Positions 3,001 through 37,000 of a DNA stretch of 64,000 bases are shown here, in pieces (positions within the stretch are counted from its first letter, which is position 1; every line of letters begins with the position of its first letter). The notes beneath the pieces are model-generated. The model had not been told where the DNA came from. It did no database searches and worked only from the letters and a program-made list of their open reading frames with translations. Source of the stretch: Branchiostoma floridae (lineage: Eukaryota > Chordata > Leptocardii > Amphioxiformes > Branchiostomatidae); the NCBI RefSeq assembly GCF_000003815.2, contig NC_049996.1, positions 11,324,856-11,388,855 on the forward strand. The letters are read 5' to 3'. The translations under genes and the position numbers were made by a program.

Positions 3001-3290
3001 TTTAGGCGTCAGGCAACAAGGCACACTTCTTCTTAGTGCGTGATCAGCCATTGTGTAGCAATTTAGACTGCTCAAATTTATCATAGAGCATAATTAGTGC
3101 TTTCTAGCTATAGCTATAGGTGGACCATAATTGGCACCTGCAGATTTTAGCGTTAAGCAAAGCCAGTCTGCACAAATCTAATGTAATGCAGGGCTGCAGT
3201 ACCTTTTGGCGTGGCTACGTATTACATTATATATAAAAGCTCCTTGATTATATTCATGCAGATGAAGTTTTCCTCTACACTGAAATCAGG
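1..3290. repeat. Tandem array of a ~1.455 kb unit, about 2.3 copies
   Basis: The unit starting at 1 restarts at about 1455 and again at about 2909. The third copy stops near 3290, where unrelated sequence begins. Equivalent landmarks are 1456 bp apart (405 versus 1861, 1209 versus 2665) and differ by only a few substitutions and 1-bp indels, so the copies are recent. Each unit is itself built from two diverged half-repeats (about 405-740 and 960-1300), both carrying the stretch around a gctatggatggaaacatc motif. A short GT microsatellite (near 935 and 2390) lies between the halves. No long open frame runs through it; the short frames recur once per unit with no recognisable protein. Confidence 0.9.
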
Positions 3291-3300
3291 TGCCAGAGCA

Positions 3301-3679
3301 TTGACAGTATTCCCCCAATAATGAATGACCACAAGAAAGGTAGGGCTTGTTGGAAAACCTAGCTGTCACTAATTTGAGGAAACATTACATTAGGTATTGA
3401 GATCAGTATTAAACATTTGACAGAAGATAGTGGCGTTTCAGTGTGGACATTTTACTTTTCTGGTCACTCACCTGTAAATGAAAATCAACACAAGGCAAAC
3501 AGAAGTTATAATTTTAGTCCCTTTTTTCAGGTGAGACGCCCTTGCAGGTGACGAAGAGATAACAACCCCGCAGAAAACTGAGGAGAGGGCTTAGAATCTT
3601 TCTGTTTCAGATCCAAGTAAATATCTGAAACTATAACGTTACAGAAGTGCAGGAAATTATGCCTCTGTAAAATCCAAAT
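3301..3679. other. Non-coding upstream flank of the LRR gene
   Basis: Single-copy sequence between the end of the tandem array and the first ATG of the LRR receptor. It presumably holds the promoter and 5' UTR of that gene. I see no convincing TATA box or other landmark. Confidence 0.4.
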
Positions 3680-6228: not shown

Positions 6229-6328
6229 NNNNNNNNNNNNNNNNNNNNNNNNNNNNNNNNNNNNNNNNNNNNNNNNNNNNNNNNNNNNNNNNNNNNNNNN
6301 NNNNNNNNNNNNNNNNNNNNNNNNNNNN
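6229..6328. other. Assembly gap (100 N)
   Basis: A run of exactly 100 N, a conventional placeholder length, 14 bases after the LRR stop codon. The 3' UTR of that gene is therefore cut by a gap of unknown true size. Confidence 0.99.
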
Positions 6329-13522: not shown

Positions 13523-16500
13523 ATGTCACAGTTGGTGTCGAAGCGGAAGAGAAAGACGCATGGAAAGGAAAGGTAGGTTCTACTAACACTAACAGAGTGG
13601 TCAGATTCACTGCATGCGTCGTACGGTTTTGATGCTGTAGAAATTTTCAAGCAGGCTGTGACTAAACAGCCACTGGCAATAATTTAGGACAACATTTTTC
13701 GTACTGTGACAAGGCAGCTTAATTTTGCAGGACACGTGTATGGCTATCTTATGAATGTCTTTTCTGAGTTAACTGTCGTGCGAAGACTATGCTCTAAGTT
13801 GCTATTTGCTAATGATGTTGTCATGGCGTTACAAGGTGTATAAGGTCGAGATCTTGTATCCATTCAGGGTTACATTGAAACGACCCCCACCTCCCACTGT
13901 GCAAGTCCTTGTTACGGGTTACGTGTAAAGATAAGAAAGATCAAAGGATCAAATGGTAACATTTCAGTTCAAGTGTAGACGATAGTCTTCGGAGGCAACG
14001 AACGAACCATATGCATACAGTAGTCACATTGCATAGATACCCGTAATCTCCCGAAACCTATGAGTGAGAAGGTAATGTATACCTATGACCTTTGTAAAAG
14101 GTTTCAGAGAGGCTCTTCTTCTTGGCTGTTGTTTAGCCCTTGCTTTTTAGGGATTATCTGTACTTATTCATTGTTTCTGTACATCGCTTCTGCATGAAAC
14201 CTTACGCGCTTGGAGATACACGGCCATTTCCCCATTCTTACCCTTCCTCTCCTTACTCTCAACACGGAGGGGGTAAGTCATACATATTTGTATGTTTTCG
14301 TTCTTACATGTAGAGTGTAGATAGATGTGATCAGTATACTCCTCCCACCTGTACCACATATCCTGACTAAATCACGCTTCTAGCAGCCCCTCCACTGGCC
14401 AGACCCTTTCGGAGGAGCTACGATCAGCACTCAACAGTGTAACACAGCTACGGTACCAACAATCTACTCTCTAAGCAGAGTTTGATAGGGAAATCGTGAC
14501 CTTTTTCTTATATGCAGTCTTTTTCTATCAGCTATCCATATCCACATCATGGGAATAGCTGAAGGAAAAAGACGGCATATAAGAAAAAAGGTCACAATAT
14601 TCACGATCTACCTCTGCTTATGAGAGAACCACCAATCTAAACCTTCAAGTGTTCAGTAGCTCGCAACGGCAAGCCCTATGTCTTTCTGCAGGTGCGTGCA
14701 AAAATGGAGCTTACATTTTTTTCAAGAAAGCTCTGATTTCCAAAATGTGTGGGAGACTTTCCTCATAAGTAGTGGTTTAGAGACGTTATTGTAGCGCTGT
14801 GATTCTATTTGTTTTTCTTCCCAGATCTTCGTGGGCACAAGGCTATTGTAGACACCAGTCGCACCGGCTGGACAGATTACCGTTATGGGGTGCACTAAAT
14901 CTACTCACGTATCTTAAGCACTCCACTTTAAACGTTGCTATGGTTACAAAGACTCCACATTTGTGGAAGGATTTCGTTCTGTTGGTACAGAGAGTAGGCG
15001 CCGTTTTTTATCAGTGGTCTCAAAACAACTAGAGTCAACATAGCTTCCACCGCACCTGGCCACACAACATTTATCCCCATCATGACACTCAATAATTACA
15101 GCCCACCAGACCACCTATTTTGATTCCACAAGAAAATAGAGATATTGATTCATCGAAAAAAATGTTTCATAAAAGGGCTTGTGTGATTCAATATGTAATT
15201 TTTGAATCAAGTTATTCCCAGATCTTGTTACACACAATACTCAGAGTCAGAGTGCAGGACTTGGGCTCGCTTGATTAGGTTATCTCAAAAGCGAGTGGTA
15301 CAAAAGAACCTCGTTGTTCGGCTATGGGCTACACTAACCCTTCATCATCAACTACTCAGTACGCGACCCCAAGTAATTACCTGGTTCCCAAAACAGCCCT
15401 TAACTACATTAAGGAGGAGTGCTTTAACCATGGAGACCACAGGAAACAGTAACAGTTTTTGTCAGAGTTAAATGGGGAATGGTGGATATTGAGGGCTGTG
15501 AAGTGGATATTTTCTGTGCATCAGGAAAGCGTGTTGCTACAAGCAGGCTTGGTGCATTCGGAAGTTGTAACGGTTTGATCTTTTCTTGTGGGTAGAGCTG
15601 GTATATTTGTCTTAATGTTTCCTCCTTTCTTTGGCATTGTTCAGCCAGGTGCCCTATGAATGCCTGTATCTCGCTGAGATTTAGCAATGTATATATATAT
15701 GAATGCATTTTGCAAGAACGGCGAAGAATGTATCTTATTAGATTTTATATCTCGATGTTGTTCTTTCATGTAATTGAAGAATAACATTCTGGGTCTGAGT
15801 TACGTATTGAGGTATACCCACAAATTAAACTTCACGGTGAGATACACAAACAGTGCCAAACACTGATAGGATAGGGCCAGGCAAGGATAAAAGATTTAGG
15901 AAAGACTACCGTATGATACAACTAAATTCATGATCGAAAGCATTCAGTTGGACCTTTTATTTGGAAAAGACGGTCCAGACGGGGAAGGTAGTCCGTTGCG
16001 TTTTGCTCAGTAAAAGAGAAAGAATGTATCAACATGATTCCTAAAAACGGAGTCTTTATCATTATACTATCGGAGTAGTGAATTGTACTTTTTCTTTCCT
16101 GAATTCATTTAAATGTGTTTGTTGTTTTAGAGTTACCATGGCGACGAAGGTCCGGTTTTGGGACAAGCCATCCTCCGTCAAGAAGAGGACATGTAAGTAT
16201 ATCCCTATCTTCAAGGGTACTTGACCTACAAATCCATGAATGTGGTCCACGAGCATGTCGGAATTTGGTGTCTATGGTCTATCAACAATCTAAGAAGGAT
16301 TAAAAGTTTCATATGACTTTAAGTACAAAATGTGATGTTATTTTCCGAGTAGTGCCCGAACAGTGCAACTTTTGGTTTGTATCAAATTGATGCTTGTCTT
16401 ACTTTTCATTTTCGTGTATTTATATTTTTCTGTAGCTACGTCACTTGGCATCCTGACAAAGCGACCAATCAGAAGAACAGACAGTGAGTCATACCTTGAC

Positions 16501-17526
16501 CAATACATCCGCACGTACTACAAGAGCAAACTTGAGATCCCCTGTAGCGCGATTTTAAGTGTTCGACAAAGCGTGGCCGATGTTTTGGGGGCTTTGAGTC
16601 CACTTGTACAAGAAAACGAGTACAGCATGACTGTAGGGGACTTCGTGTGTGTCGGAAGCGGATACGACGGAATGAAAAACGGCATCCCCGACGAATTCGA
16701 CGTCGTCGTGCCTTTTCGACTCGGCCCGAAGTGTTCCGAGACCCGCCGACCGGCGACGGACTACGTGTGCGTGCGATCTCGGAGAGGTTCGAAGAACGCG
16801 GGAAAGGACACATGGTCGGGATGTCGGACGGGGGAGGGATACATTTCACCCATCAAAGTAACAAAGCGGCTACAGAAAATAGTTCTAAAGGCGCTGGAAG
16901 AAACGGGACTGCCGAATGTGATCATTCACCCAGATTGTCGTAACGCGCTCGGGGGAGAGAGAGTCGGCGTTCGGCTGAGTACGGAAGACGGTGTGACAAT
17001 TCGTCTGCTTCCCGCCTTAGGCACAGTGGACCAGCTGGAACCGTTTCTGGTGGCCATATCGTACCGAGACGACCCGGACTACACTCTATCCGACTACTAC
17101 TGGAGAAGATGCTACTGCGTAGAGGAAGGGAAAGTCGTCAGATATTTGTCACAAGCCGACGACGGCCGAAGGATAAAAGTACTTCAAGTCATGAAACACG
17201 CTTTCCGCAAAGACGCGATGTTGCGCCACCTGTCGGATTACGTCATGAAGACAGTTCTGATGCACATGTTTGACCAGCACATTGACGAAGACGACTGGCA
17301 CGCCTACAGTTTCGCCGCGTGTTTCATGGAGATGCTACGGCTGCTGCACGGATACATGAAGAGACAGAACCTACCCCATTTCTACATGGATGACGTCAAC
17401 GTGCTGAGGGACGTGCCCGCGCCCAGACTAGCCAGCATGACCGGCAAGGTGGAGAGCCTCCTAGCGAGCGAACAGGAAAGGACACGTTTGCTGAGATCCC
17501 AGTTTCCTGTCACTATGTCTCTTTAG
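13523..17526 (+). CDS. Mab-21 domain protein, cGAS-like nucleotidyltransferase fold
   Basis: Exons 16131-16192 and 16436-17526 are well supported by GT-AG sites (donor GTAAGT, acceptor TTTTTCTGTAG) and give 381 aa from the ATG at 16138. An upstream exon 13523-13572, rich in Lys/Arg, joins in frame and would make 400 aa; it is tentative. The body shows the nucleotidyltransferase signature: V-G-S-G-Y-D, then ~11 residues, then D-E-F-D-V-V-V-P, matching the GS...E-x-D of cGAS. Further on come the Mab-21-type V-T-I-R-L-L-P-A-L strand and a helical C-terminal half with MKTVLMHMF and the LPHFYMDDVNVL segment. The strand that normally supplies the third catalytic acid carries Arg. The 5' end of exon 2 (16363-16435) also reads open with a hydrophobic stretch, but this is spliced out in the model. 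It could be an ITPRIP-like, Mab-21-like or cGAS-like receptor; substrate unknown. Confidence 0.8.
14465..14628. mobile_element. Foldback (hairpin) element in the first intron of the Mab-21-like gene
   Basis: The left arm begins CTCTCTAAGCAGAG and continues gtgacctttttcttatatgc and gtctttttc; the right arm is its imperfect reverse complement, ending ctctgcttatgagag. Arms are ~75 bp at roughly 85 percent identity around a ~15-20 bp loop. The terminal word resembles CTCTCCAAGCAGA at about 63570 and CTCCAAGCAGAT near 26955 and 27513, suggesting one transposon family. Confidence 0.7.
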
Positions 17527-18393: not shown

Positions 18394-21274
18394 CTAGTAG
18401 TCTCCTCTCCGTGCAGATAGTCTGCTCAGGTGTCTCAGTAGAGTGTAGAAGTTGGCTGACACGTCAGATATCTGTGCGTCCGTCAGGTCGGCCAGCAAAT
18501 TGGTGTCGGGGAAGAAGAAGCTCCTACAGAAGCGTGTCCTCATGCACTTGTGCAGCCGTACTAGTACACCCTGCCACGGCCCTTCCACGCACAGCAGACC
18601 GTCCTCCCACGAGTCCTCCCGGCTTGTCTCTGCCGGAGCACTCCGGGCCTCCACCCGGGCCACAAACCCGCTCCGGCCCCACTCACTCCGCACACACACG
18701 TCCATGTGCTGGTTCTCGGAAAACTTCAGGTCCACCCGGGTCAGGGAGTTAGAGAGGGAGGGTCCGGTGTGGTTGGCATGGTTACCGTTGTACCTCTCGG
18801 TCACGTGGTTTTGAAGCTGTTCTTCTTCGTGACGCCAGTAGTCATGCGCACGCGCGCTGACACCGTTCATGTCATTTTCGTCGACGTCGTCGGCAGTCAG
18901 GTCATTGTCCTCCCACAGTACGCATGCGCGAATCACGTTCTGTGGTAGAAAGCAGATCTCGTCCACGATCTGCGCATGCGCCATGATGACAGATGGATTC
19001 ATTTGTAGCATGACGGAATCCCACATCGGGAGAGTACTTTTGGTGAGCCGGTCTTCTATCAAATCGGTCGAGATCGCCCATTTTCGCCCTTCGATCATTT
19101 CCGACGCGTCTCCGAACTTTGACGAAGACGTGGCACCAGGATAATGCCTGGCTTCCATGTGCCAAACGATGACGGTTCCCTCTACTTCATGCTTCATTCT
19201 CATTGGCAGCTTGTTCAAGGGGACTGCGCTGTCAGGCCAACCGTAACAGGTTAGTGACGTCACTAGCTCAACCGTGATGGTAGGAAAGTCGCCATAACGT
19301 TCTATCAGCAACATCACCACAGGTCTCTTCTGTCGCACGATGACGTCAACGACCCGGGACCAGGGCAGCTTGGGCACGTCGCCGTCTCGTACCCATCGCA
19401 GTTCGGACTGTATGGTGAGTTTCAGATGCTGCACAGCTGACGAGACGATACCAAACAGCCAGGTGTAGATCTTTAAGGGGTTCAGGTAACGCTCTACGTC
19501 AAGGAAAGCCGTCCATCGCGCCGGTTTGGTCCGGTTCTCGGATACTTTGTACAGGACCTGGTTGGCGGGAATGCTCGCTTGGTCTCGGCTAGTCCAAACC
19601 TAAAGAGCCAAACGAAAATATTTTGGTTTCAGAGCAAACTCAAACTTACAAACTTAATGTACAACACGGTAATACTTTCCACTCGGACCCAGCCATATTA
19701 CTCACAAAGGGCATCAGAATCCAACAACTCTAACTGCTTTATTTCCAATCCCCCATAACATTTTCTTTCCTAAAATCATATCTCATTCTCTTCGTTGTTT
19801 TGCAGTAGCCAGTCTCCATATTACCTGCATGTATGTGAAACGTTACACATGCTCACAAGCTATCGTGAAAAATATCAGCCATACACATGATCATTTATCA
19901 CGTCTGCAGTGAAAGTGTACCCGCCGTCTTTTGTTACCAAGTCGTGTACAACGGTACTTTCGGCTCCCATTAGAATCGTCCACAGAATTGGCGACATGAA
20001 ACCCCATTCGCCCTTAACAACCCAAATGTTGACTTACCACCTTAATCAAATAGCCCACCAGCGTTAGTAAAAACACAACGCTAAATACCGCCTTGTTTTG
20101 CCATTAAGCGTACAGTGCCCCTTTCACCTTTTGAGAAATAAAATGCTGAAAGATCCTTTGATCCGTGTGGTATTCACGTCTTCCTGTTGCTATGTTATGT
20201 AGGGTTTCTCTCAAATGTATCCCAGTTACGGCGTAACGTTGTAAAAGAAAGCTTTTAGAGAGAGATCGTTTTTTAATGTCAACCGAATAGTACTAGTAAT
20301 AGTAGTAGATGGCGTTTCGCGTGTGTATCAATCAAATACTGGACAGGCCGTATACCTTCGTGTTTATGTGGGCATAGCTATAGAAGCAACACACACTGGA
20401 AAGTAACGGATGCTACAGTAGCTGTTGATGGATGTCTAGTATTCATTCTTTTAGAACAATCAAAATCTACATTATTGAGGTCAACTTGTCAATTTCAGAG
20501 AACTACTTCAATACGAATAAAGAGAACACAATACATTAAAACCGACGCGTATTTTCATTTTTCAGTCTTTTAGAAAATTAGATTAAGACTATTTCCGTCA
20601 GTTTGTTAAACAAAGTGCAATGTACTGTAAATCATTACAGAAAACTAACAGAATTGTTTTTCCCACAAAGATTTCTTCATTATGTTCGTGTCAGTAAACA
20701 ATCATGTTTTGGGGTTCTTGTTGTTACTGACGTAACGGTTTTCCACAGGTCCACTATTGTACATCATCAGGCAACACTAAACGCACCGATTGAGTAATTG
20801 AATTGGGTCCTGGAGCGAAACTACGTCCTTTGAACGAATCAAAGACTGACACAGAAAATAGGCAACACAAAGGACCAGAGCAAAATAGCTTCTTCTTGTT
20901 GTAATTCTGTAATCTGTGAACAATACAAGCATTTGACTCTTTTCAAATAGTAGGTAGATTCATAGGCTCCAAGAAAATTGCATTAAACATCGGTGAAAAA
21001 AACAGCTGTTTACCTCAAAATCGTCCCAGTCTTTGCCGATATCCAGAGGCAGTCGGCATTGCAGGACGTTCGGAGTCACCACTCGGACGAGATCGGCAAC
21101 ATTCGTCTCCTGCTCGAAGCAGTCCCGAAACTTCCTGTTGGCTCTCATGTGTTTGAAGAGGCCACTCAGAACGCTCAATGCGACGTCAAGTGTTCGTCTT
21201 GTCGAGTCGTTGACCAGTCCAATCGGTCCTGAGGAGGCCGAAATGTCGTCTGATCTCGACTCCTGTGACGCCAT
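18394..21274 (-). CDS. Divergent Mab-21-like protein (ITPRIP/Mab-21 type)
   Basis: Two exons, 21274-21014 and 19599-18394, joined in phase 0 by a GT-AG intron of ~1.4 kb, give 488 aa. Exon 1 has a helical N-terminus and the segment NVLQCRLPLDIG, which occupies the place of the E-x-D-bearing strand in active relatives. Exon 2 contains LNPLKIYTWLFGIV (spine-helix-like), the ITVELVTSLTCYGWP strand that in Mab-21 proteins precedes the C-terminal domain, and a distal CRSFFFPDTNLL matching the family's HYFLPNLDLF-type segment near the end. No GS...[DE]-x-[DE] signature is visible, so it is probably a non-catalytic relative. A Met-free stretch precedes the methionine at 19434, so the two-exon model is needed for the N-terminus. 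Membership is inferred from motif order; function unknown. Confidence 0.7.
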
Positions 21275-22199: not shown

Positions 22200-22791
22200 A
22201 GATAAAGTAGATGTGACAGCTATAATAGTATGGTCAGCTCATATACTACTGACAGGATAGCTACAAAATGTATGATCTCACTAGATCAGTTAGGAATAAG
22301 TAATTGTATGCCATATTTATAGTAAGGCTTAGATGTAAGTATAGTTTGTTTGTTTGTTTATTTTCAAACGCCTGGGTGGCCTATTCAAATTCGGTAAACT
22401 GGTTTTCGATAGGGCCCAGTTTCTGGTAAGACATTGAAATGATTTTTTTATTCCTGTGGACATGTAGGGCAACCCTTTTCCTTTTAAATGACTATAGTTT
22501 TATTTCCTTTTAAATGATCATAATTTTATGATCTACAGGTAAGTACCATTTCAAGGGTGAGGATATTGGAAATTAACAAGCTACATTTTGAGGTCTTCTC
22601 GAGGGTCTGGGTAAAGAAACATTACGATGAAGGTGCGTGTTGGATTAAATGGGATCATTTTCAACTTGCCTTTTCTAAGCTCTTTACTGTATTCATTAAT
22701 TTGGCTATCATAGTAAGGCTTGAAACTTTAACTTAGGCAATGTCTGAGAAAGTAATAAGAAAGCAACAAAAAGTATCAAAGTACTCAACAA

Positions 22792-22797
22792 TTTATT
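22792..22797 (-). promoter_or_regulatory. Polyadenylation signal of the left cyclin-O-like copy
   Basis: AATAAA on the minus strand, ~480 bp after the stop codon. The same hexamer in the same context (aacgAATAAA) is kept at the mirror position 32425-32430 of the other copy. Confidence 0.6.
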
Positions 22798-23270
22798 CGT
22801 TGAGATAAGAAAATGTTTTCTTCATACAATGTCACAATCGCTGTCCCATATTCATAATAAGTTATTACTTTTAAAATAGCAGCATAGCATATATTATATA
22901 TCTTATGTACAACAGTCACAATATTGGATAATTTTCCAACTACTCTCAATATTCAATACATCACATCACATTACATTTCATCACATTACATAGTATTGCA
23001 CTTTGTGAATAGTCTCATCTGAACAACATCATTATCATGCCAGCACAATATGAATAATAATCTTACACAAGGACAGCACAATTTTACACAACAATGTTAA
23101 AATGCATCTTTCAGATAAAAACTCAGATCAAGTAGACTGTGATTGACCATTAACCAGTGGGTTTAGCAAAGGTAGTTTACATCTGTTCTAAGGTTGTTCA
23201 GCATCACTTCAGAACACGGGTGTCATAAGTCAGATGAGAGTTGTGATGTGGGATGGACGGAGGTCAAAGT

Positions 23271-25665
23271 TCACTGGTGGTACTGCTGGTAACACATCAT
23301 GAGGAGGTCCGGGAGTGGGAGGCGGTCCATCATCGTCATCAACACCAGCTGCAGGTCCAGAATGCACCTCTCTACAGCTGGGCAGGTGTTCATTCTGTGG
23401 GGAGGGGGGTGACAGGTGTCAGTCAAATCAACATCTCGGTCAAAAGGTGAAGAAGAATTGCTACTTGTCCATCGCAATTAGCAGTTCAACCAATGATAGC
23501 ATGGCACTTTTAAGTACGGCCAATGAGAGAGTCGCTGCATGCGATTCAAATACTTCCATTTTTGGTTTTTGGTTTTATTTCTACATTTTAACAATGGTGG
23601 GCAGGGCTATGGTATCGGTCTATTACAAAATGATTAGAAGAACAATCAAAGATGGTGGACAGGTGAAGTTACCTGGTGTTGTTGACAAGACTTGCGGCCA
23701 AGTTCAGGGCTGCGAGAGCGAGGCTGGAGGGAGCGTGCTGACAGATGACGTAGTCCTGCAGTGATGTCACCAGCAGGTGTCTGGCCAGACAGCTGGTCAG
23801 GTGGTCGTACCGTCCGGCCTCGGCCAGGTGCTCCAGGAACAGGATGGAGGTGGGAACGGTCAGGTGGAAACCGAGCGTACTCAAGACTTTCCTCTCCAGC
23901 TGGAAAACAACAGCAGTGTCACAATTCAGTATACAGTAAAAAATAAAAACTACATATTGTATATAAATATGAGATTTTTTTTTTTTTAAATAGTGCAGTA
24001 TGGTATTCAGTAACCGATTTGGTTGGATGAGATGTTTTATTTCCACTTGCTATTTTCCCACACAATGTTGTGCAGTCTCATACCATTATGCTTTTATGTA
24101 GCCACTCCTCGGTATGTATTACCATAATTGATACAGAATGCATAGATAGATGGATAAGGGCTCAATTTGTTCCTCACCATTCTGAGCTGCCCCCGTGTGT
24201 ACTGGCCTTCATCACACAAGCCGACAATCTCTTCAGCACAGAGGGGATGGACTTCCTCCTGTAAACAATGGTAGGAAAAGTCAGGTACATGTACTGAGGA
24301 AAAGCACACACAATGAGCACATTTAACTTCTCCCTACAACTACAGCTATGTGAACTGCAGTGAAGAACTGTCCAGTAGGGGGCGATGTTGCATGGTCTGA
24401 CACACTACATGCATTATTTGTATTATCTTGCTATGTCTAAATAAAGCCACAGTTTGAATATATGATTGAAAGGAATCTGCCAGTGGTAACTAGATTTGGA
24501 CCTTCACACAAAGAACCATAACTTCACCTACCGAACAACTTAAGTCAACGAACAAACGTTTGTGTAAGTGTGGAATTTTCTTCAACACATGCTGCACACT
24601 GACATCTTTTGATGTAATTTTGATTTTAGAATCAAATGTAAGTGTTTGAATAACTATTGATATTCAGAAAAATAGTTAGATGCAATATATTCACCATTTT
24701 GGTGGCGATGAAAAGCGCAGTGGCCCCAAGAAGCTGTAGACAGTCCAGTCCGAGAGGTGTTACGGCCAGGAAACGGTCCACGATGTTAACTGCAAGGAAC
24801 AGCGTTTCCGGTAGGAGGCGTGGTTGCATGGTCTGGCACACATGCGTCAACCAGCGGACTAGGAGGCCGCGCATCTCAGCTGTAATCTATAACAACACAA
24901 ATAGTTGTTGCAAATTAATGTCAACAATTTTTACGACGAAATTTATAAAATCGTTGCCGGAAAAAGCCAATTGAATGTTAAAATCTGACCATTCATCGAC
25001 AAGTATAATTATTACAGTACATCTATGAACAGATATATGTCCACCAAAATGAAATCAGACAAGCAAATACATAGGCGAAAGAAAGCCCTTTTACCTGAGG
25101 CTGGTTGTTAAGGGACTGGACGGGATGAAACTTGACTTCGTTGCTCTTCATCATGAGGAACCACTCGTTCAGGTAAGTCGGGTCGGCAGGAGCCTGCACC
25201 GTACTGTCCACGATCATCTGGTCGGGCACACTCCACTTGGGCGCCGCAGCCGCACTGGTGAAGGCATCGGTACATCCATGCATTGGACTGACATCATAGA
25301 TGTCCTAGAAAAACACAAATGATTACATATGATTCTATGGATCCATTGAGAGAACATTCAATCACAGAATTACCAGGTAAAGTATCAGTCCATTACACTA
25401 ATCTGATCAAAACAATAAATTGGTCACAGCTGTTTACATTTGTGATCGTACTGATAGACACAAGAACATTGTAAATCATTACGCTATCGTCATTTTATGA
25501 AGATCTATACGACAATATAGAAATCAGATCGCAATAACTAATGTGTAAGTGCTGATTGTCGACACGTACCTCGCAATAATCTGAGTCCGATGTCTCTCCG
25601 TCGCTGCCACGCCGAGATTGAAACTTCATCATGCTGGGCTTCATAGCGATCGCTGCCGGAAACAT
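23271..25665 (-). CDS. CCNO: Cyclin-O-like protein, left copy of the inverted pair
   Basis: Exons in transcript order: 25665-25570, 25304-25095, 24886-24695, 24258-24178, 23899-23673, 23394-23271. The 930 nt join in phase with GT-AG introns and give 309 aa. The cyclin box begins with KFHPVQSLNNQPQITAEMR, close to the vertebrate CCNO block FHP...QPQVTAESR. It continues with LVRWLTHV, LAVNIVDRFL, LDCLQLLGATALFIATK, EEVHP and LERKVLSTLGFHLTVPTS plus FLEHL, a run more like CCNO than cyclins A, B or D. The ~80-residue N-terminus is short and Ser/Asp-rich (RRGSDGETSDSDYCE). In vertebrates cyclin O acts in multiciliated-cell centriole amplification and oocyte growth. The reading frame stays open upstream of the chosen ATG in this copy only; the ATG is chosen because it is shared and follows the TATA box. 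Confidence 0.87.
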
Positions 25666-25782
25666 TATAATCAGAGGACGGTAATCGATCGACGAGAGTA
25701 GCAAAGCTTCACTGGATATTGGACGATGGGGAGATGTTGTCAAATCCACGAGGAATGGTAGAGATCCATCAAAAATGCTCCG

Positions 25783-25789
25783 ATTTATA
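25783..25789 (-). promoter_or_regulatory. TATA-like box of the left cyclin-O-like gene
   Basis: TATAAAT on the minus strand, ~120 bp upstream of the ATG at 25665, and identical to the mirror element at 29214-29220. Confidence 0.6.
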
Positions 25790-25844
25790 CTTGAAAAGTC
25801 AGACGGCTGAGTCTGGCAGACGATCGTGGTGTCTCGCCGGCATG

Positions 25845-25856
25845 TTTCCCGCCAAA
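25845..25856 (-). promoter_or_regulatory. E2F-type site of the left cyclin-O-like gene
   Basis: TTTGGCGGGAAA on the minus strand matches the E2F consensus (TTTSSCGC/GCGGGAAA). It lies ~56 bp upstream of the TATA-like box and is perfectly conserved in the other copy. Confidence 0.65.
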
Positions 25857-25865
25857 TCCACACAT

Positions 25866-28800
25866 TTCACCCTACGCTCTGATTGGTTGATTTCCTAATT
25901 GCCGTCAGACACACCTGGACCGTCCCCGTCTGGGCAATCTTAATTCTGCGATGTGATTGGTCAGTTTGATAACGTAATCATCGAATGGCGAGACGCCTGG
26001 CATTCCTGCACGTCCACACGGGATCAAGTCAGACATAAGTGTCTGTGATTTGTGGGCCCATCAAAATCATACAAGATATGTTTCTGATTGAACGACAGTG
26101 TTTAATTATTTCTAATCTGTTTCTAATAGCGTCGGTACATAATTGGGTATTTGCATCCATCTATTGCGTGAAGAATTAATTGTTGGTATGTCACGTTTGA
26201 CATCGATTCTTTGGTTTCAACAACATTCAGCTGCGCTTTAGCAGCTGCACTTTTAGATCATATCGCCGGAGGTCGCTACTGGACGGTCTGTGTCAAGTTC
26301 GTAATGTAGGTTCTGACAGCAACTTGAGACTAATGCTGTTTTGATAGGGTAAATGATATCTCACTTTATTTTCATGTTAAGCATAGTAGAGGCTGCTCAG
26401 TTGGGAACTTTTGTTAGTTACTGTATATACACACAGATGCTAGTAAATAGGGTTTATGAAGCACGCACAGGCTGTCGTCTGCTGATTCGCTTGACTGCAT
26501 GGCATTCTTGCACAGATCAACAGATGCGGTTGGCATACACTTGATAAATGAAACGCTAGAGGTCGCTATTGAGCCGTCTTTATTAGGACATACCAGATCT
26601 GGTATACGATAGCCTGGGATTGAATAACGAAACAAGTAACAGTTGGTCAATTTCGGTATCCTGGATATAAATCAACGACTGAATCACTTCTTTGATATAG
26701 AAGACGATGAATCGCGATTCACAAAAATATCAACATTGACGTTAACTTACTTGACAATTATCAACATCAAAACATAGTAAAATTTCAATCTACTTGGCAC
26801 GCACGTCAACACTGAGAGGGCTTGATGTCCATTTGTTTCATGGCATTCAGGACGACCAATGGCATCCGAATACAAGTGCAACGTCAAACTGCGTACTTTG
26901 TATATAAATCGCTAGAGGCCGCTGCTATACCGTGTACGTGCGACGTTCGTTAATCTCCAAGCAGATGTTCAGGTAGAAGTTATTGTCACAGTCTGCTCAT
27001 AATGTAATCATCGAATGTCGAGGCACCTGACATTCCTACTCGTCCACACGGGATCAAGTCAGACAGAACCGTCTGTGATTTGTGGACCCACCAAAAGCAG
27101 ACAAGAAACGTTTCTGATTGAACGACAGTGTTTAATTGTTTCTCATCTGTTTTCTATGGACATTGGTACATAAACAACCGTTTGCATCTATCTATTGCGA
27201 GAAGAATTGTTGTTATGACATCGTTTGACATCGCTTCTTTGGTTTCAACCGCATTCAGCTGCACTTTAGCAGCTGCTCGCTAAGATCATACCGACGGAGG
27301 TCGCAACTGGACGGTCTCCGTCAAGTTCGTAATGTAGCTTGTCCTAGAACTAGAACAGACTCTAGATCTGTTTGGCCAACTGGACCAAGGGACATGGCCA
27401 CGGGATGAACAGAGGAAGAGATACAAAGACACTCTCAAATACTACCTGAAAAAGGGACATTTTGACCCACTGAACCTTGAAAAAACTGTGTACAAGCTGA
27501 CGTTCTTCAATCTCCAAGCAGATCTTCGGATAGACGTTATTGTCGGTATAATCTATTCACCATGCAGTAGCGCCCTCTAGCGACTGACGTATAAAATCCA
27601 TGTTAAGAAACAGGCCAGTGTGTTGTCACTGTCGCTGAATCAGATGAAATGAGGCGATTTCTGGTTGAACTTTCCACATTCTGAGGTAGAATGGATTATC
27701 CTTGGCTAGCGGCAGGGGTAGGGGACAATGATGGCACGGCTTCTGTGGAAGAGACTATGATAATAATAGTGCGATCAATCATTCATCATAACAGTGAGGT
27801 CCTTATCAAATACCCCAGTCTCTGATTCAATAAAGAAACAGATGAGAAACAATCTAACACTGTCGTTCAATCAGAAGAGCATCTTGTATGGTTTTGGTGG
27901 GTACACAAATCACAGACGTTTCTGTCTGAATCCCCGTGTGGACGTACACGAATGCCAGGTGTCTCAACATTCGATAATTACATCATCAGACTGACCAATC
28001 ACAGAGCAGACTGTGACAAAACTTCTACCCGAACATCTGCTTGAAGAATAACGAACGTCGCACGTACACGGTCTAGCAGCGGCCTCTAGCGATTTATATA
28101 CGAGGTGCACGGTTTAACTTTGCACTAGTACTCGGATGGCATTGGTCGTCCCGAATGCATGTTTATCGCGCTTTACAAATATAATAGACATCAAGCCATC
28201 TCAGCGTTGACATCCCAAGTTGAATAAAATGTCACCATGTTTTGATGTAGATAATGTTAACATCAATGTTGGTATGTTTGTGAATCGGGATTCATCGTCC
28301 TCTACATCAAAGAAGTGGTTCAGTCGTTGGTTCCTATCCAGCATGCCGAAATTGACCAACTGTTACTTCTTTCGTTATTTAATCTCAGGAATGGTTCTCT
28401 GGTATGTCCTAATAAAGACGGCTCAATAACAAAACCTAGCGTTTCATTTATCAAGTGTAGACTAGGGCCAACCGCATCTGATGATCTGTGCAAGAGCGTA
28501 AGTCAAGCGAAATCAGCAGACGACCGTCTGTGCGTTTTTCATTAGCCCTGATTTGCTGACACCTGTGTGTAACTAATAAAAGTTTCCAACTGATCAGTAG
28601 CCTCTACTATGCTTGATATTTCATGCAAATATGGAAAAAGTGAGATTTACACTATCCACTCAGCATTAGACTCCAAGTTGCTATCACAAGCTACTAGTAC
28701 ATTACGAACTTGACGGAGACCGTCCAGTAGCGACCTCCGGCGATATGATCTAAAGTGCAGCTGCTAAAGCTCAACTGAATGTTGTTGAATTCAAACAAGT

Positions 28801-29137
28801 GGAGTCAGATGATGACATACCAACAATTCTTTACGCAATAGACAGATGCAAACGGTTGTTTATGTGCCGGTGTCCATATAAAACAGATGAGAAACAATTA
28901 AACACTGTCGTTCAATCAGAAGAGTATCTTGTATGATTTTGGAGGGTCCACAAATCACAGACGGTTCTGTCTGACTTAATCCCGTGTGGACGTGCAGGAA
29001 TGCCAGGCGTCTCGACATTCGATGATTACATTATCAAACTGACCAATCACAGCGCAGAATAAAGACTGTCCAGACAGGGACGGTCCAGGTGTGTCTGACG
29101 GCAATTACCAATGAACCAATTAGAGCGCAGGGCGAAA
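25866..29137. other. Head-to-head spacer between the two cyclin-O-like promoters
   Basis: About 3.3 kb without a supportable gene. It contains the inner parts of both arms, the ~1 kb direct repeats, the word CTCCAAGCAGAT near 26955 and 27513 (reverse complement near 28037), and a fragment of a LINE reverse-transcriptase-associated tail at about 27390-27485. The unpaired centre is about 27165-27835. Confidence 0.7.
27388..27486 (+). pseudogene. Fragment of an RTE-type LINE polyprotein tail
   Basis: One frame reads FGQLDQGTWPRDEQRKRYKD and then TLKYYLKKGHFDP. Such a basic block (RGGQRKRYKDTLK-like) is, from memory, common downstream of reverse transcriptases in RTE/CR1-like LINEs of marine invertebrates. 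It is ~100 bp with no flanking reverse-transcriptase domain, so it is a dead remnant. It sits in the unpaired centre of the inverted duplication. Confidence 0.5.
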
Positions 29138-29146
29138 AGGTGTGGA

Positions 29147-29158
29147 TTTGGCGGGAAA
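29147..29158 (+). promoter_or_regulatory. E2F-type site of the right cyclin-O-like gene
   Basis: TTTGGCGGGAAA, ~56 bp upstream of a TATA-like box, the exact mirror of 25845-25856. It fits cell-cycle-linked transcription. Confidence 0.65.
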
Positions 29159-29213
29159 CATGCCGGCGAGACACCACGATCGTCTGCCAGACTCAGCCGT
29201 CTGACTTTTCAAG

Positions 29214-29220
29214 TATAAAT
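29214..29220 (+). promoter_or_regulatory. TATA-like box of the right cyclin-O-like gene
   Basis: TATAAAT in the context aagTATAAATcgg, ~118 bp upstream of the ATG at 29338. The same element is present in the mirror copy. Confidence 0.6.
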
Positions 29221-29337
29221 CGGAGCATTTTTGATGGATCTTTACCATTCCTCGTGGATTTGACAACATCTCCTCATCGTCCAATATCCAGTGAAGACTT
29301 GCTACTCTCGTCGATCGTCTAACGTGCTCTGATTATA

Positions 29338-31917
29338 ATGTTTCCGGCAGCGATCGCTATGAAGCCCAGCATGATGAAGTTCCAATCTCGTCGTGGCAGC
29401 GACGGAGAGACATCGGACTCAGATTATTGCGAGGTACGTGTCGACAATCAGCACTTACACATTAGTTATTGCGATCTGATTTCTATATTGTCGTATAGAT
29501 CATCATAAAACGGTGATAGCGTGATGATTTACAATGTTCTTGTACCGATCAATACGATCACAAGTGTAAACATCTGAGACCAATTCATCGTTTTGATTAG
29601 ATTAGTGTAATGGACTGATACTTACCTGACAATTCTGCCATAGAATGGGTCGATTAGTAGACTTCTTTTGGTGAGTCCATTGAATCATCTGTAATCATTT
29701 TTACTTTTCCAGGACATCTATGATGTCAGTCCAATGCATGGATGCACCGATGCCTTCACCAGTGCGGCTACGGCGCCCAAGTGGAGTGTGCCCGACCAGA
29801 TGATCGTGGACAGTACGGTGCAGGCTCCTGCCGACCCGACTTACCTGAACGAGTGGTTCCTCATGATGAAGAGCAACGAAGTCAAGTTTCATCCCGTCCA
29901 GTCCCTCAACAACCAGCCTCAGGTAAAAGGGCGTTCTTTCGCCTATGTATTTGCTTGTATGATTTCATTTTGTTGGATGTAATATTTTTACTTTGCTCGG
30001 CGTACAAGTCAATGAATAGTCAGATCTTGACGACAAATCATTCAATCGACTTTTTCCGACAACGATTTTATAAATTTCGTCGCATGAATGAAAAATGGTT
30101 GGCATTAATTTGCAACAACTATTTGCGTTGTTACAGATCACAGGTGAGATGAGAGGTCTCCTAGTCCGCTGGTTGACGCATGTGTGCCAGACCATGCAAC
30201 CACGCCTCCTACCGGAAACGCTGTTCCTTGCAGTTAACATCGTGGACCGTTTCCTGGCCGTAACACCTCTCGGACTGGACTGCCTACAGCTTCTTGGGGC
30301 CACCGCGCTTTTCATCGCTACCAAGATGGTGAATATATTACTTTTAACTATTTTTCTAAATAACAATAGTTATTCAAACACTTACATTTGATTCTAAAAT
30401 CAAAATTACATCAAAAGATGTCAGTGTGCAGCATGTGTTGAAGAAAATTCCACACTTACACAAACGTATGTTGGTTTACTTTAGTTGTTCGGTAGGTGGA
30501 GTTATGGTGCTTTGTGTGAAGGTCCAAATCTAGTTACCACTGGTAGATTCCTTTCAATCATATATTCAAACTGTGGCCTTATTTTGACAATTAGCAAGAT
30601 AATACAAACAATGCATGTAGTGTGTCAGACCGTGCAACAGCGCCCCCTACTGGAAAGTTCTTCACTGCAGTTCACATAGTTGTAGTTGTAGGGAGAAGTT
30701 AAATGTGCTCATTGTGTGTGCTTTTCCTCAGTACATGTACCTGACTTTTCCAACCATCTTTTACAGGAGGAAGTCCATCCCCTCTGTGCTGAAGAGATTG
30801 TCAGCTTGTGTGATGAAGGCCAGTACACACGGGGACAGCTCAGAATGGTGAGGAACAAATTGAGCCCTTATCCATACATCTTTTCTGTATCAATTATGGT
30901 AATACATACCCAGGAGTGGCTACATAAAAGCATAATGGTATGAGACTAAAGAAAATTGTGTGGGAAAATAGCAAGTGGAAAAAAAACACATCTCTCCCAA
31001 CCAAATCAGTTACTGAATACCCGGCATACTGCACTATTTAAAAAAAAAATGCTCTCATATTTAGATACAATATAGTTTTATTTTTTACTGTTTACTGAAT
31101 TGTGACACTGCTGTTGTTTTCCAGCTGGAGAGGAAAGTCTTGAGTACGCTCGGTTTCCACCTGACCGTTCCCACCTCCATCCTGTTCCTGGAGCACCTGG
31201 CCGAGGCCGGCCAGTACGACCACCTGACCAGCTGCCTGGCCAGACACCTGCTGGTGACATCACTGCAGGACTACGTCATCTGTCAGCACGCTCCCTCCAG
31301 CCTCGCTCTCGCAGCCCTGAACTTGGCCGCAAGTCTTGTCAACAACACCAGGTAACTTCACCTGTCCGCCATCTTTGATTGTACCTCTATTAAATCATTT
31401 TGTAATAGACCGATCCCATAGCCTTGCTCCCCCTTTGTCAAATTGTAGGAAAGCAAAAGAAAGTTTTAATACGTTTTACAAAAAAATGTGACGTTTTGAG
31501 CAAAATTGAATTGCACAGTGTTTTAAAATGATGTGAGTGGAATGTATTTCAGCCTAGAAAGGGCTGTAAATTTCAATGAAAAGTCAATGAACCATTCATT
31601 CATTCATCCATTCAAAGACTTAAAAATCAAATACTTGATGGGCATACAGCCACTCTCTCATTGGTCATACTCAAAATCGCTGTACTATCATTGGCTAAAC
31701 TGCTAATTGCTATGGACAATCAGGATTCAATTCTTCTTTATCCATTTGACTGATATGTTGATTTGACTGACACCTGTCACCCCCTCCCCCCAGAATGAAC
31801 ACCTGCCCAGCTGTAGAGAGGTGCATTCTGGACCTGCAGCTGGTGTTGATGACGATGATGGACAGCCTCCCCCTCCCGGACCTCCTCATGATGTGTTACC
31901 AGCAGTACCACCAGTGA
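29338..31917 (+). CDS. CCNO: Cyclin-O-like protein, right copy of the inverted pair
   Basis: Exons 29338-29433, 29713-29922, 30137-30328, 30767-30847, 31125-31351 and 31794-31917 have exactly the lengths of the left copy (96, 210, 192, 81, 227, 124) and give 309 aa. Differences noticed are few: Ala to Thr in the exon 2 Ala cluster, ITAEM to ITGEM, EEIVGL to EEIVSL, EAGRYDH to EAGQYDH, and MDRLPL to MDSLPL. Neither copy has a stop or frameshift, so both look functional. An in-frame stop upstream of the ATG excludes the longer N-terminus that is open in the left copy. The gene converges on CFAP65, whose stop codon is ~2.1 kb downstream. The assignment rests on the same cyclin-box resemblance to CCNO. 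Confidence 0.87.
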
Positions 31918-34037
31918 ACACTGACCTCCGTCCATCCCACATCACAACTCTCATCTGACTTATGACATCCGTGTTCTGAAGTGATGCTGAACAACCTTAG
32001 AACAGATGTAAAGTACTTTGGCAAAACCCACTTTTCAACGGTTAATGGTCAATCAGTCTCGAATTGTATCTGAAAGATGCATTTTAACATTGTTGTGTAA
32101 AATTGTGCTGTCCTTGTGTAAGATTATTATTCATATTGTGCTGGCATGATAATGATGTTCTTCAGAATTGTTGTTCAGATGAGACTATTCACAAAGTGCA
32201 ATACTTAATGTAATGTGATGAAATGTAGTGTGATGTAATGTGATGTGATGTGATTTATTGAATATTGAGAGTAGTTGGGAAATGATGCAATATTGTGACT
32301 GTTGTACATAAAATATATAATATATGCTATGCTGCTATTTCAAAAGTAATAACTTATTATGAATATGGGACAGCTATTGTGACAGGATATGTATTGTATG
32401 AAAAAAAAATTTCGTATCTCAACGAATAAACTGTTGAGTACTTTGATACTTTTTGTACTCTCTTATTTCTTTCTAAGAGACATTGCCTAAGTTTCAAGCC
32501 TTGCTATAATTATCAAATAAAAGATCATGAATTCAGTAAAAAAGATTAGAACTAGAAAAGCCAACAACTTGAAAACAATCCCATCAGCAAACTCAGCACC
32601 TTCATCAAACCATGGAGAAGACCTCAACATGTAGCTTGTAAATTTCCAATATCTTCATCCTTGAAACTGGTACTTGCCTGTAACGTTACAATAACTATCA
32701 TTTCTGTCATTTAAAAGGAAAAGGGTTGTCCTACATGTCCACAGGTACGAAAAATTCCTTTCAAAGTCTTACTATACTTACATCTAAGTATTACTATAAA
32801 TCTGGCATACAGAATTCAATTGCTTATTCCTAACCCAACTAGTGAGACCCATTCATTCTGTAGCTATCCTGTCCACAGTATATGGTGAATATATGGCAGA
32901 CCTACAAAGATGACCATATGACTCCCTAGTTAGACTCCATAATGCCAATATGCCATCAGGATTTCTACAACTCAACACCAGAAGACCCCCAAAACAATAG
33001 AAAGATTCTGAAATAGTAGCTTAGAGCCATGCTGTATTGTAAGAGAAGTAATGAACAGAACATGTCAAGAGCACTTATAGTAGATAATTATGTATGCAAC
33101 GTACGGTAAATGTTGAAAAGTTTGGGGTGGTTTTGTTTTTGCAGTTTATCGTAACGCCAGGAGTATACCTTTCCATTGTATTGCTAAACTGTAAACAACC
33201 TTTTCCTTTCAGGTTGAAATTAAGTCCCAAAAATAAAATGAAATTACTGTTGCAAGAGAGGAGAGGTGAAGTAACAAGTAAATATCTAAGAATCTTACAC
33301 TGGCAAAATATACATTTAAGGGATTTAAGTAAACAAACAAAACAGGCAGAGTGTGTAGAAAGTGCAGAATTCATTTTAATGATTCTTCTTTCTCAGATAT
33401 AGAAAATTACAACCATTGTCCTCATATACATAACTGTGTTTCTCTACGAACGAGAAAATATACCAATACACCTCAGACGTGTAATGTTCAAATGTCTTCT
33501 AAAGAATTCAGTGTGCAAATCTTAAAATGTGTTCTCTACAACATGTACAATACAGAGCCTTTTTTTTAATTTTCACTACTAGTATATATAGCAATCCAAC
33601 TTCATGAAATCCAAGGGATAGTTGAATACCAAGTCTCAATATTTCTTTATATATTTACAAGAAGATATAAGGCACTTAATTCACGAGAAAGGAGTTCTTC
33701 TTTTATCAAGGCACTAACGTGGGTTAGAAAATGCCATCTTTATACAGCTTGCAGAAAAGCTAAGGCACAATAGACACCAAATCACATTCAAACCATATTT
33801 GAGTGAAACATCATGAGGTTTCATAATCATAAGAAAAAACATCGCTCGTGTTTGTATAAAGAATTGAGCCTGAAGTTATATATTATAGCATACAAGTGCA
33901 CAACAAGCTATGTGATACATGTGCTGTACACTCTATATAATAAACTTGGCAAATCGGTGCCTACAATCACGAAAACAAAGAGAAAATGTTTGTGCACATT
34001 GTTGAAACTTTATACACTCTGTTCACTTCAAACGACT
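31918..34037. other. Convergent 3' interval between cyclin-O-like and CFAP65
   Basis: Holds the 3' UTR of the cyclin-O-like gene (AATAAA at 32425-32430, mirror of the left copy), the outer end of the right duplication arm (to ~32.9 kb), and about 1 kb of single-copy AT-rich sequence that should include the CFAP65 3' UTR. No gene is supported. Confidence 0.5.
32425..32430 (+). promoter_or_regulatory. Polyadenylation signal of the right cyclin-O-like copy
   Basis: AATAAA ~510 bp after the stop codon, in sequence conserved with 22792-22797 on the opposite arm. Confidence 0.6.
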
Positions 34038-37000
34038 TCAGTCTCTGCTTGTGCTGATGCTCTGTTGTTGCCTGGAGACCACAGTGGTCACGCCCGTTTT
34101 CTGTGTGAACGTCGTGCTGGGCGGTATGGTAGTGGTCGGTTTCGTCCTGGTCGTGTGGCCGGTTTTCTGCGTCATCGTTGTGGTGAACCCGGTCTTGATG
34201 AGGGTTTGCGGGCTGGCGGAGCTTGGCGGGAGGGCGATGATACGCGGTCGTGCCGTCAGGTTGACCTCGCCACGACTTGCCTCCATCATGATGTTAGCCA
34301 TGGTGTTCTCAATTACATCTTCCAGCAGGCTGGCAAACTCGGGAGTCCTGAAAATACAAGATTCAGTATGAGCTACATGTATTATAACAATATATATTCA
34401 ATTTGGTGAAACCAGGAAGACAAATGACAAGGATACTACTAATACTAGGCAAGATTCTACATAGAATTTCCTTTTTACTTTCAGCCTGACTGTCACACAA
34501 TTTTGCATGTCAGGGGCTGAATCGGTCTCCTACCTGAGAGCTGTACAGGAATTGTACAGGACTATTTCTATAATGTCTACGCACACATAGTTTAAGTTTC
34601 TATTGAAGAAAACAGCTCCAAGATCATAGGCAGTAACAATACTGCATACATTTTGCACAGTTTAGAGAATGGCTTGAGATTGTTACTGTTATTTCATGGC
34701 ACGTTTCCTTATGTTTGTTTATGAATTGGTCTTTTTGTATGTTTCTGAGAAGAGAACAATATATGTCAAGCTTTATTGACACAACAAAAAGTACAGTGAC
34801 TTTTGTATGGTCAACCATAAACTACAAAGAATACAGAATAGATCTTAAAATTCTACTTATTAAACAATATAGGATAATAACATTCTACTAATTGAACAAT
34901 ACATGGATAGGATAACAAGAAAAATTCCATGCAATCAGGTGGGGCTAAATGTGTCTTTTCTGATCATAAAGCAATCTTGTATGCATTTACCCATCTTAGC
35001 GTTATGATAGATTTGGATCTAAAGTGTAAGATATAGTGACTGTCGTATATCTGACCTCTTGAGAGCCTGTTGCTGCTCCAGCTTGGCCTCCAGCTCCATG
35101 GTCTCCTCCACTCCCAGCGCATCTATCCGCTCCGGGCTCTGCTCAGCAGCGGGGGTGGGAACCTCGTACGAGGGCTCAGGAGACTGTCAAGGTCAACACA
35201 AGGTCATAGTTAGTAAGCACATTGTCTCTAGATTCATGTTGTGGAAGCAAAAACTTTATCAGTGTGCTTGGATCCTGCCAACATTCTTTAATCACTTGTC
35301 TAATTGCAAATTTTTCTGTCAAGGTCAATTGAAAGGCTTTGGTAAAGATATTGTCTCTAGCATCATATTGTGGGAACAGGAACATGTTTTTATGTAGATT
35401 TTGCTTGAATCCTGCAAATATTGTTTCTGAATCATTTGTCTAATTGTGAAAGTTTGTATGCTAGGCATTCCTTCCATTGGAAAAATGTGATAATGTATAG
35501 AAGGCTGAAGAAGTCTTCTCTAGTCTTACCAGTCCTTATGATGGCTCCAGGGACTGTCAAAGTCAACACAAGGTCATTGTCTCTAGATTCATTTTGTGGA
35601 AACAAAGCTTTCTCAGTGTGCTTGAACCTGTAAACGTTAAACTTCATTCTTGGATCATTTGTCTAATTGCAAATTATTAAAGTTTGTATGCTACACATTC
35701 CTTCCATTGGAATAATGTGATAATGTATGGACATCTTAAAGAAGTCTTCTCTATTCTTACCAGTCCTTGTAGCTCAGGTTCGACGTCTGGAGACACAGCA
35801 ACGGGAGGCTCCTCCAAGGGGGACACCCCCTCCCCCTCCTCCTGTCCGTAGTCGGGAGACTGGGGCAACGACGGCTCCCCTAGCGGTTTCTCACTGAACT
35901 GCGAAAAGTAGGGAATGGGCTCGTTCTTGATGTTGTCCACTGCTTCCTGGAAGTTAGGATCATCCAACAGGTCCCTGGAAAATCAATATCAAATGTCTTA
36001 AGTACATGTAATTCTTTTACTGTACGAGTAAACGAACAAGCATATGGAAAACATACAACTGTGAAAATACAGACAGACCAAAAATGATACCTCTCCATAA
36101 CCTAGTAGCCTCCTCCATTGACCCTGGACTGTCATGTCTGATTAACAAGTAGTGCTGTCAACTCTAACCTCTACTTCCTGCCACTACGGCATGTCTGACC
36201 TTTGCTTCCTACTTACTGATTTCCTGTCACTCTACTTACAGTGTATTCAAATATCTAGACACACACCAATACAAACTAACAAACACAATGATGACAAAGA
36301 GTCCATACATGCGTGGAGTCAAATATTGGCATTAATCTTAGCATTATCAGTAAGTACTAGTTGGACTATTGAATGTCTCAAATCATCAAATCCTGAGTTA
36401 TAGTAGAACATGGTATGAAAGATCTCACCTGAGAATGTTGGACAGTACGTGGGACATTGTGTCCTTCTCCTCATGGCTGACCTCTCCAAGGTCGACCGGT
36501 CCCTCCTCCTCTCCCTCCTCACCGAACATCCTCTTCTTCAGGCTAGCTGTCAGCTCTTCTCCCAGGGTCCTTTGGGAAAACAATGGATGTAAACTACTTC
36601 AGTAACTGATTGGAGAATACACTTTGCAGTTACTAGTTCTACTGAACAACAAAGTAGAAACAACTCAAATATTTTTGCTGCCAAAAATTATTATTGTAAC
36701 ATGTCCAGAACATAACATATCAAAACTGGAAGTTTTGCTGCAGTACCGTAGAAAGATGCTAGAAGGCCCATTGCCAAACTTGACCTTCATTTCCCCAATA
36801 CCAGCCAACCCAATGACCACATATCATTAAGATCCATTGATAGCTTCTTGAGTCATTATACTGTGCACAACCAACACATGCCCAGCCAACCACAAATACT
36901 AGTAGCAATGAAAACATATTACTAACCTTCTTGGTGAAGGTGTGAAAGTTTGTATGTTGGTGTATCTAACAATAAGCAAACGTGTAGAAAATCCCCACCT

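Follow-up and report, generated by a model that had tools for sequence, protein, structure and literature searches.

In vertebrates, cyclin O, a protein of about 350 amino acids (aa), is known above all for its part in multiciliated cells. It is needed in these cells for centriole amplification and activates Cdk2 in apoptosis (PMC5725090), Multicilin together with activated E2f4 induces its gene (PMC6098136), and in mouse oocytes the protein acts at germinal vesicle breakdown and in the formation of microtubule-organizing centres (PMC10487953). According to one survey, the gene (CCNO) is mostly limited to Vertebrata, yet belongs to a cluster whose genes occur in chordates, and is flanked in tetrapods by MCIDAS and CDC20B (PMC8470418). 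The theme of the present report is a pair of cyclin-O-like genes in the lancelet (amphioxus) Branchiostoma floridae, set head to head in the two arms of a palindrome, within a 64,000-nucleotide (nt) stretch of the genome (RefSeq assembly GCF_000003815.2, contig NC_049996.1, positions 11,324,856 to 11,388,855, forward strand), hereafter the window, whose positions are counted from its first base. Among the open-access papers searched, none was found for the terms "cyclin o" with "amphioxus" or "ccno" with "branchiostoma".

The lancelet pair resembles vertebrate cyclin O in its N- and C-terminal cyclin boxes and in a promoter with an E2F site, which fits the induction of Ccno by Multicilin with activated E2f4 (PMC6098136). 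It differs in that there are two copies, arranged as an inverted pair, in that the proteins are 309 aa long, and in that lancelet ciliated cells are listed as monociliated, the listing covering the larval epidermis and juvenile gill-bar cilia of B. floridae and no other tissues (PMC7017327). As to arrangement, inverted gene duplicates are a known and ordinary kind of event. The palindromes of mammalian sex chromosomes, whose arms are more than 99% identical, likewise have inverted arms with intact genes, a short unpaired centre and possible arm-to-arm conversion, whereas the lancelet arms are 5 kilobases (kb) long, about 90% identical, with one gene per arm and no known sex linkage. Small-scale tandem duplicates of amphioxus, whose abundance in B. 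lanceolatum is reported to exceed that in vertebrates, are also products of local duplication; the cyclin-O-like pair departs from them in being inverted, a word that the consulted text of that study uses of transposon ends only (PMC9673378).

The palindrome and its two genes have the following parts.

22240..27152, minus strand: left arm, holding gene A, defined by its match to the right arm in blastn and at base level
27153..27835, no strand: unpaired centre of 683 nt, its left part being the remainder of the upstream repeat R2A (see below)
27836..32884, plus strand: right arm, holding gene B, defined by blastn and base-level alignment with the left arm
23271..25665, minus strand: cyclin-O-like gene A, ATG to stop, 309 aa, with exons 25570-25665, 25095-25304, 24695-24886, 24178-24258, 23673-23899 and 23271-23394
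29338..31917, plus strand: cyclin-O-like gene B, ATG to stop, 309 aa, with exons 29338-29433, 29713-29922, 30137-30328, 30767-30847, 31125-31351 and 31794-31917

At base level, the inverted arms are identical at 4241 of 4733 aligned positions, and blastn recovers them as three inverted matches, of 87.2% identity over 3683 columns (23578-27152 versus 31451-27836), 81.7% (22426-23563 versus 32772-31622) and 81.6% (22240-22345 versus 32884-32771). Being kilobase-length, reverse-complementary and arranged around a shorter spacer, they form what is called a palindrome or inverted segmental duplication, from whose centre genes A and B are transcribed outward, about 3.4 kb apart from TATA box to TATA box. 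Arms this long are not there by chance. As a control, two 100-kb stretches of the same genome (C1, C5) were searched for inverted pairs of at least 700 nt within 20 kb, and the sole such pair was 950 nt long, its members 14 kb apart; as far as this small control shows, a structure of this kind is not commonplace. Folded as a single strand, 27060-28000 is far more stable than 20 shuffles of it (z of -10.4), as expected of any inverted repeat. The preliminary description of this DNA had proposed a head-to-head palindromic duplication of an intact cyclin-O gene, with arms of about 5 kb around an unpaired centre of about 0.7 kb, identical exon lengths, a handful of residue differences, and an E2F site, TATA box, introns and polyadenylation region mirrored between the copies, and it is borne out on each of these features by the inverted arms, the two intact gene models and the elements found in both arms.

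In both genes the exons measure 96/210/192/81/227/124 nt and make up a coding sequence of 930 nt, and every intron (10/10) begins with GT and ends with AG. Cyclin_N and Cyclin_C are found above the Pfam cut-offs in both copies (E = 3.7e-31 and 1.4e-5 in gene A, 1.3e-31 and 8.8e-6 in gene B), the Cyclin_C match being weak and covering 63 of its 119 positions. Between the coding sequences there are 21 nucleotide differences in 20 codons, 15 of these codons being synonymous, and the proteins differ at five residues (positions 52, 105, 179, 223 and 293). Expressed per site, 5 changes at 716 non-synonymous sites compare with 16 at 211 synonymous sites (Fisher p=2e-7), which corresponds to a non-synonymous divergence (dN) of 0.008-0.010, a synonymous divergence (dS) of 0.062-0.075 and a dN/dS of about 0.11-0.17. 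Both proteins have been under purifying selection since the copies separated, in a test which, being made on two sequences alone, gives an average across both copies.

As to identity, the best cyclins from PDB are B1 (103.4 bits), A2 (82.6), D1 (62.3) and E1 (49.7), and a provisional human cyclin O sequence scores 118.8 bits in an alignment that runs through both boxes, ahead by a narrow margin; a FHP...QPQ(V/I)T.E.R run is shared with the same provisional reference. Because the margin is modest, the reference provisional and the comparison one of pairwise scores, "cyclin-O-like" is the safe wording. Genome-wide searches covered 513,431,437 bases in 431 contigs, with the best candidates kept. 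For protein B, all 21 candidates (21/21) were scored and yielded 14 matches, 12 of them at genes A and B; the two elsewhere lie in the cyclin box, over 79 residues on C7 (40%) and 66 on C19 (45%), and are read as other cyclins. No third cyclin O was seen in this protein search, in which a close copy would show and a distant one perhaps not, its reach being limited given that few other cyclins were found though chordate genomes have more than two further ones. DNA searches of the same contigs with part of the 3' end and with the upstream region gave no further copies, a dispersed repeat aside, and Pfam scans of ten selected open frames of the window contained neither MCIDAS nor CDC20B.

Outside the exons the arms have diverged substantially. 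The non-coding part of the gene body differs at 205 of 2157 positions (9.5%) and the upstream region at 177 of 1239 (14.3%), with insertions and deletions (indels) throughout; introns overall differ at 150/1447 positions (10.4%), the core promoter with exon 1 (25510-25910) at 4-4.5%, and the poorly aligned part of the 3' flank at 25%. Amphioxus heterozygosity is given as 3.2-4.2% (PMC12862219), and a divergence of 4.2% is rejected for the gene body (binomial p of 2e-26) and for the upstream region (7e-45). At 5.89e-9 mutations per base and generation (PMC12862219), the divergences translate into about 5-14 million generations; subtracting present-day diversity lowers this to 2-11 million.

The simplest reading, and one that we regard as probable, is that the pair arose by inverted duplication 5-14 million generations ago and that both copies have been kept. 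The segment copied, some 5 kb long, would have held one ancestral cyclin-O-like gene from about 1.4 kb upstream, through its promoter, to its 3' end; its duplication in inverted orientation, presumably within the B. floridae lineage only, would have left two divergently transcribed genes on either side of a short unpaired centre; both copies would then have accumulated changes while purifying selection held the proteins and the core promoter stayed unusually similar. Among the three origins offered in the preliminary description, namely recent duplication, gene conversion between the arms and collapsed haplotypes, the first fits best. Some observations weigh against this reading. Introns 3-4 taken alone come near allelic divergence (p=0.026 against 4.2%), and the heterozygosity of 3.2-4.2% is a genome mean and not the local allelic divergence. 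Moreover, silent differences are clustered, the longest identical silent run being 131, a length that only 2 of 2000 shuffles attain, their mean being 63, and part of the similarity between the arms may come from later exchange, not from age alone.

That the palindrome is an assembly artefact, with both haplotypes of a single cyclin-O gene assembled head to head, we consider very unlikely. The species is very heterozygous, and there is assembly trouble at the left edge of the window, where a unit of about 1.46-1.48 kb in direct repeats 98.8-99.6% identical (1-3293 and, left of the window, C18:11320693-11323687) flanks a 1168-nt gap ending just before base 1, as either a real tandem array or an assembly duplication. 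Against this, the arms diverge by 9.5-15.5% with many indels, well above 3.2-4.2%, and do not show the pattern of allelic haplotypes, that is, a divergence equal to heterozygosity and homology reaching the contig ends, which introns 3-4 alone come close to in divergence. Homology between the arms stops at 22240 and 32884, inside a gap-free 54.7 kb between the window's only two N runs (6229-6328 and 61016-61115); the nearest gaps are about 16 kb and 28 kb from the palindrome. The sequences beyond the arms, searched over 2.5 kb on the left and 3 kb on the right, are unrelated to each other and single-place: in the genome, 19700-22200 matches itself alone, and 33000-36000 matches itself in full and also contains a dispersed repeat of about 260 nt (34760-35025) for which at least 40 match rows lie in other places. 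Those parts of the arms that were searched for in the 431 contigs gave no second copy, and the left arm has an insertion of its own.

22346..22427, no strand: dispersed repeat of about 82 nt in the left arm only, its site in the right arm empty near 32771, its ends uncertain by 2 nt, with at least 38 further match rows in the rest of the genome

Since the divergence exceeds heterozygosity, the flanks are unrelated and single-place, the stretch is gap-free and the insertion is private, the palindrome is judged real and joined haplotypes unlikely, and the collapse of haplotypes that the preliminary description had raised is disfavoured.

It is possible, though we hold it to be less than likely, that the palindrome is older than its divergence implies, and that arm-to-arm gene conversion keeps certain stretches alike (from the promoter to the first half of intron 1, introns 3-4 and exon 5) while others drift (the upstream region, the second half of intron 1, and introns 2 and 5). 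Introns 3+4 differ at 41 of 707 positions (5.8%) versus 109 of 740 (14.7%) in introns 1, 2 and 5 (p=2e-8), the clustering of silent differences points the same way, and inverted repeats with short spacers are an established conversion substrate, as in sex-chromosome palindromes (PMC6790999). Yet uneven constraint could yield equal patchiness, the arms hold private insertions and indels, and the two are compared with each other only, which leaves the changes unoriented. Nor is synonymous divergence clearly lower than that of introns (16/211 versus 150/1447, Fisher p=0.27, or 0.17 with rounded sites and 15 changes); compared with non-coding sequence, fourfold sites give p=0.11 and third positions p=0.005. 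The conversion put forward in the preliminary description is therefore not needed for the exons (p=0.27), but the clustered silent differences speak for it. Occasional conversion is possible and suits the patchy divergence, as uneven constraint would too, and if it is present, the true age is greater. Decay of one copy into a pseudogene, leaving a single working gene, is also unlikely, more so than upkeep by conversion. Recent duplicates usually lose one copy, and copy B carries A105G where the cyclin box begins, a change that looks derived in that human cyclin O presumably shares Ala with copy A; however, both frames, the splice sites of all introns (10/10), the promoters and the candidate polyadenylation signals are intact and few residues differ, the selection test being here again an average over both copies.

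If the kept duplicates of the inverted duplication work as cyclins, each would activate a cyclin-dependent kinase, and the E2F site may switch each gene on in S-phase-like, centriole-making or oocyte cells; raised dosage would be a first guess as to why both persist. With monociliated cells listed for the larval epidermis and gill bars, the better guess would be that the genes act elsewhere than in multiciliated cells, in oocytes or in the ordinary control of centrioles or spindle poles. A more specific proposal, which we find rather doubtful, is that of a cyclin O pair maintained by conversion, with a shared, repeat-built divergent control region, and kept because the animal needs a double dose outside multiciliated cells, most likely in oocytes; if this were true, amphioxus would test the role that cyclin O had before its use in multiciliated cells. 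An animal with listed monociliated tissues and two selected copies is a place to ask what the first function of cyclin O was, and the palindrome, being small and flanked by unique sequence, offers a clean measurement of conversion between inverted duplicates in a highly polymorphic species.

The candidate control elements of the two genes are mirrored.

25845..25856, minus strand: E2F-type site TTTGGCGGGAAA of gene A, by motif match
29147..29158, plus strand: E2F-type site TTTGGCGGGAAA of gene B, by motif match
25784..25789, minus strand: candidate TATA box of gene A, TATAAA
29214..29219, plus strand: candidate TATA box of gene B, TATAAA
22792..22797, minus strand: candidate polyadenylation signal AATAAA of gene A, mirrored in the right arm
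32425..32430, plus strand: candidate polyadenylation signal AATAAA of gene B, mirrored in the left arm

The two E2F-type sites, each 55 nt upstream of the TATA box of its gene, are the only matches to TTTSGCGSSAAA in the 64 kb, where 0.03 are expected. The words TATAAA and AATAAA carry weight through their mirrored positions, since both are common, with 14 hits to TATAAA and 27 to AATAAA/ATTAAA in 22200-32900.

Further upstream, both arms are built in part of repeats.

25969..26312, plus strand: upstream repeat R1A, about 340 nt, from blastn and pairwise comparison of the R copies
26999..27340, plus strand: upstream repeat R2A, a direct copy of R1A that extends into the unpaired centre
28698..29034, minus strand: upstream repeat R1B, the R copy directly above the promoter in the right arm
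27836..28010, minus strand: upstream repeat R2B, an R copy truncated at the inner end of the right arm

Each arm has one 340-nt R directly above the promoter and a second about 1 kb further up, and the upstream region as a whole (25969-27544 and 27836-29034) consists of direct repeats of about 1 kb that include the R units. In the centre, 27485-27544 is a degenerate direct copy of 26929-26987, a further piece of the upstream repeat unit; because this piece and the remainder of R2A lie there, the centre is partly made of the arms' own repeats. The six pairs among the four R copies are 11-16% apart and nearly star-like, and on the 153 columns common to all four the distances are 8-16%, with R2A closest to R1B; an order of duplication was sought from these repeats and dropped, as the six pairwise distances give none that is clear. 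Two other interpretations of this region were set aside: the upstream repeat is not a dispersed transposon, 25945-27345 matching this locus only (three matches, one candidate, in the genome search), and for the centre as a retroelement remnant, proposed from an open frame (27338-27577) reminiscent of the end of a LINE (long interspersed nuclear element), Pfam found nothing.

Intron 3 of each gene contains a relic of exon 3.

24348..24412, minus strand: decayed copy of 63 nt of exon 3 in intron 3 of gene A, by local alignment
30613..30680, plus strand: decayed copy of 66 nt of exon 3 in intron 3 of gene B, by local alignment

These relics are 79-80% identical to exon 3 over 59-62 columns (blastn). 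In local alignment they score 70 (B) and 68 (A), whereas 500 shuffles reach at most 30 and 34 and the other introns of gene B score 16-19. The presence of the relic in both arms is most simply explained if it arose before the palindrome. A CTCF-like core, CCAGTAGGGGGC, occurs in mirrored positions in intron 3, at 24372-24383 (plus strand) and 30642-30653 (minus strand), and nowhere else in the 64 kb, where 0.10 are expected (2 of 100 shuffles reach 2). The idea of CTCF sites as mirrored boundary elements was rejected, because CCAGTAGGGGGC falls within the relic and is two letters away from the CCGGTAGGAGGC of exon 3 itself; descent from coding sequence would therefore explain the core, which is probably a by-product of the coding relic.

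The surroundings of the palindrome contain several other elements. To its right, a ciliary gene transcribed towards gene B is marked by two minus-strand open frames (44293-44871 and 50933-51793) that encode Ig-like domains of the CFAP65 type, with a hAT transposase frame (Dimer_Tnp_hAT; 54377-55534, minus strand) nearby, and a partly self-complementary minisatellite of about 72 copies of a 20-nt unit lies at 46694-48128. To its left are two long uninterrupted Mab-21-domain frames (16336-17523, plus strand; 18397-19599, minus strand), and at 3671-6211 (plus strand) an open frame of 847 codons with leucine-rich repeats stops just before a gap.

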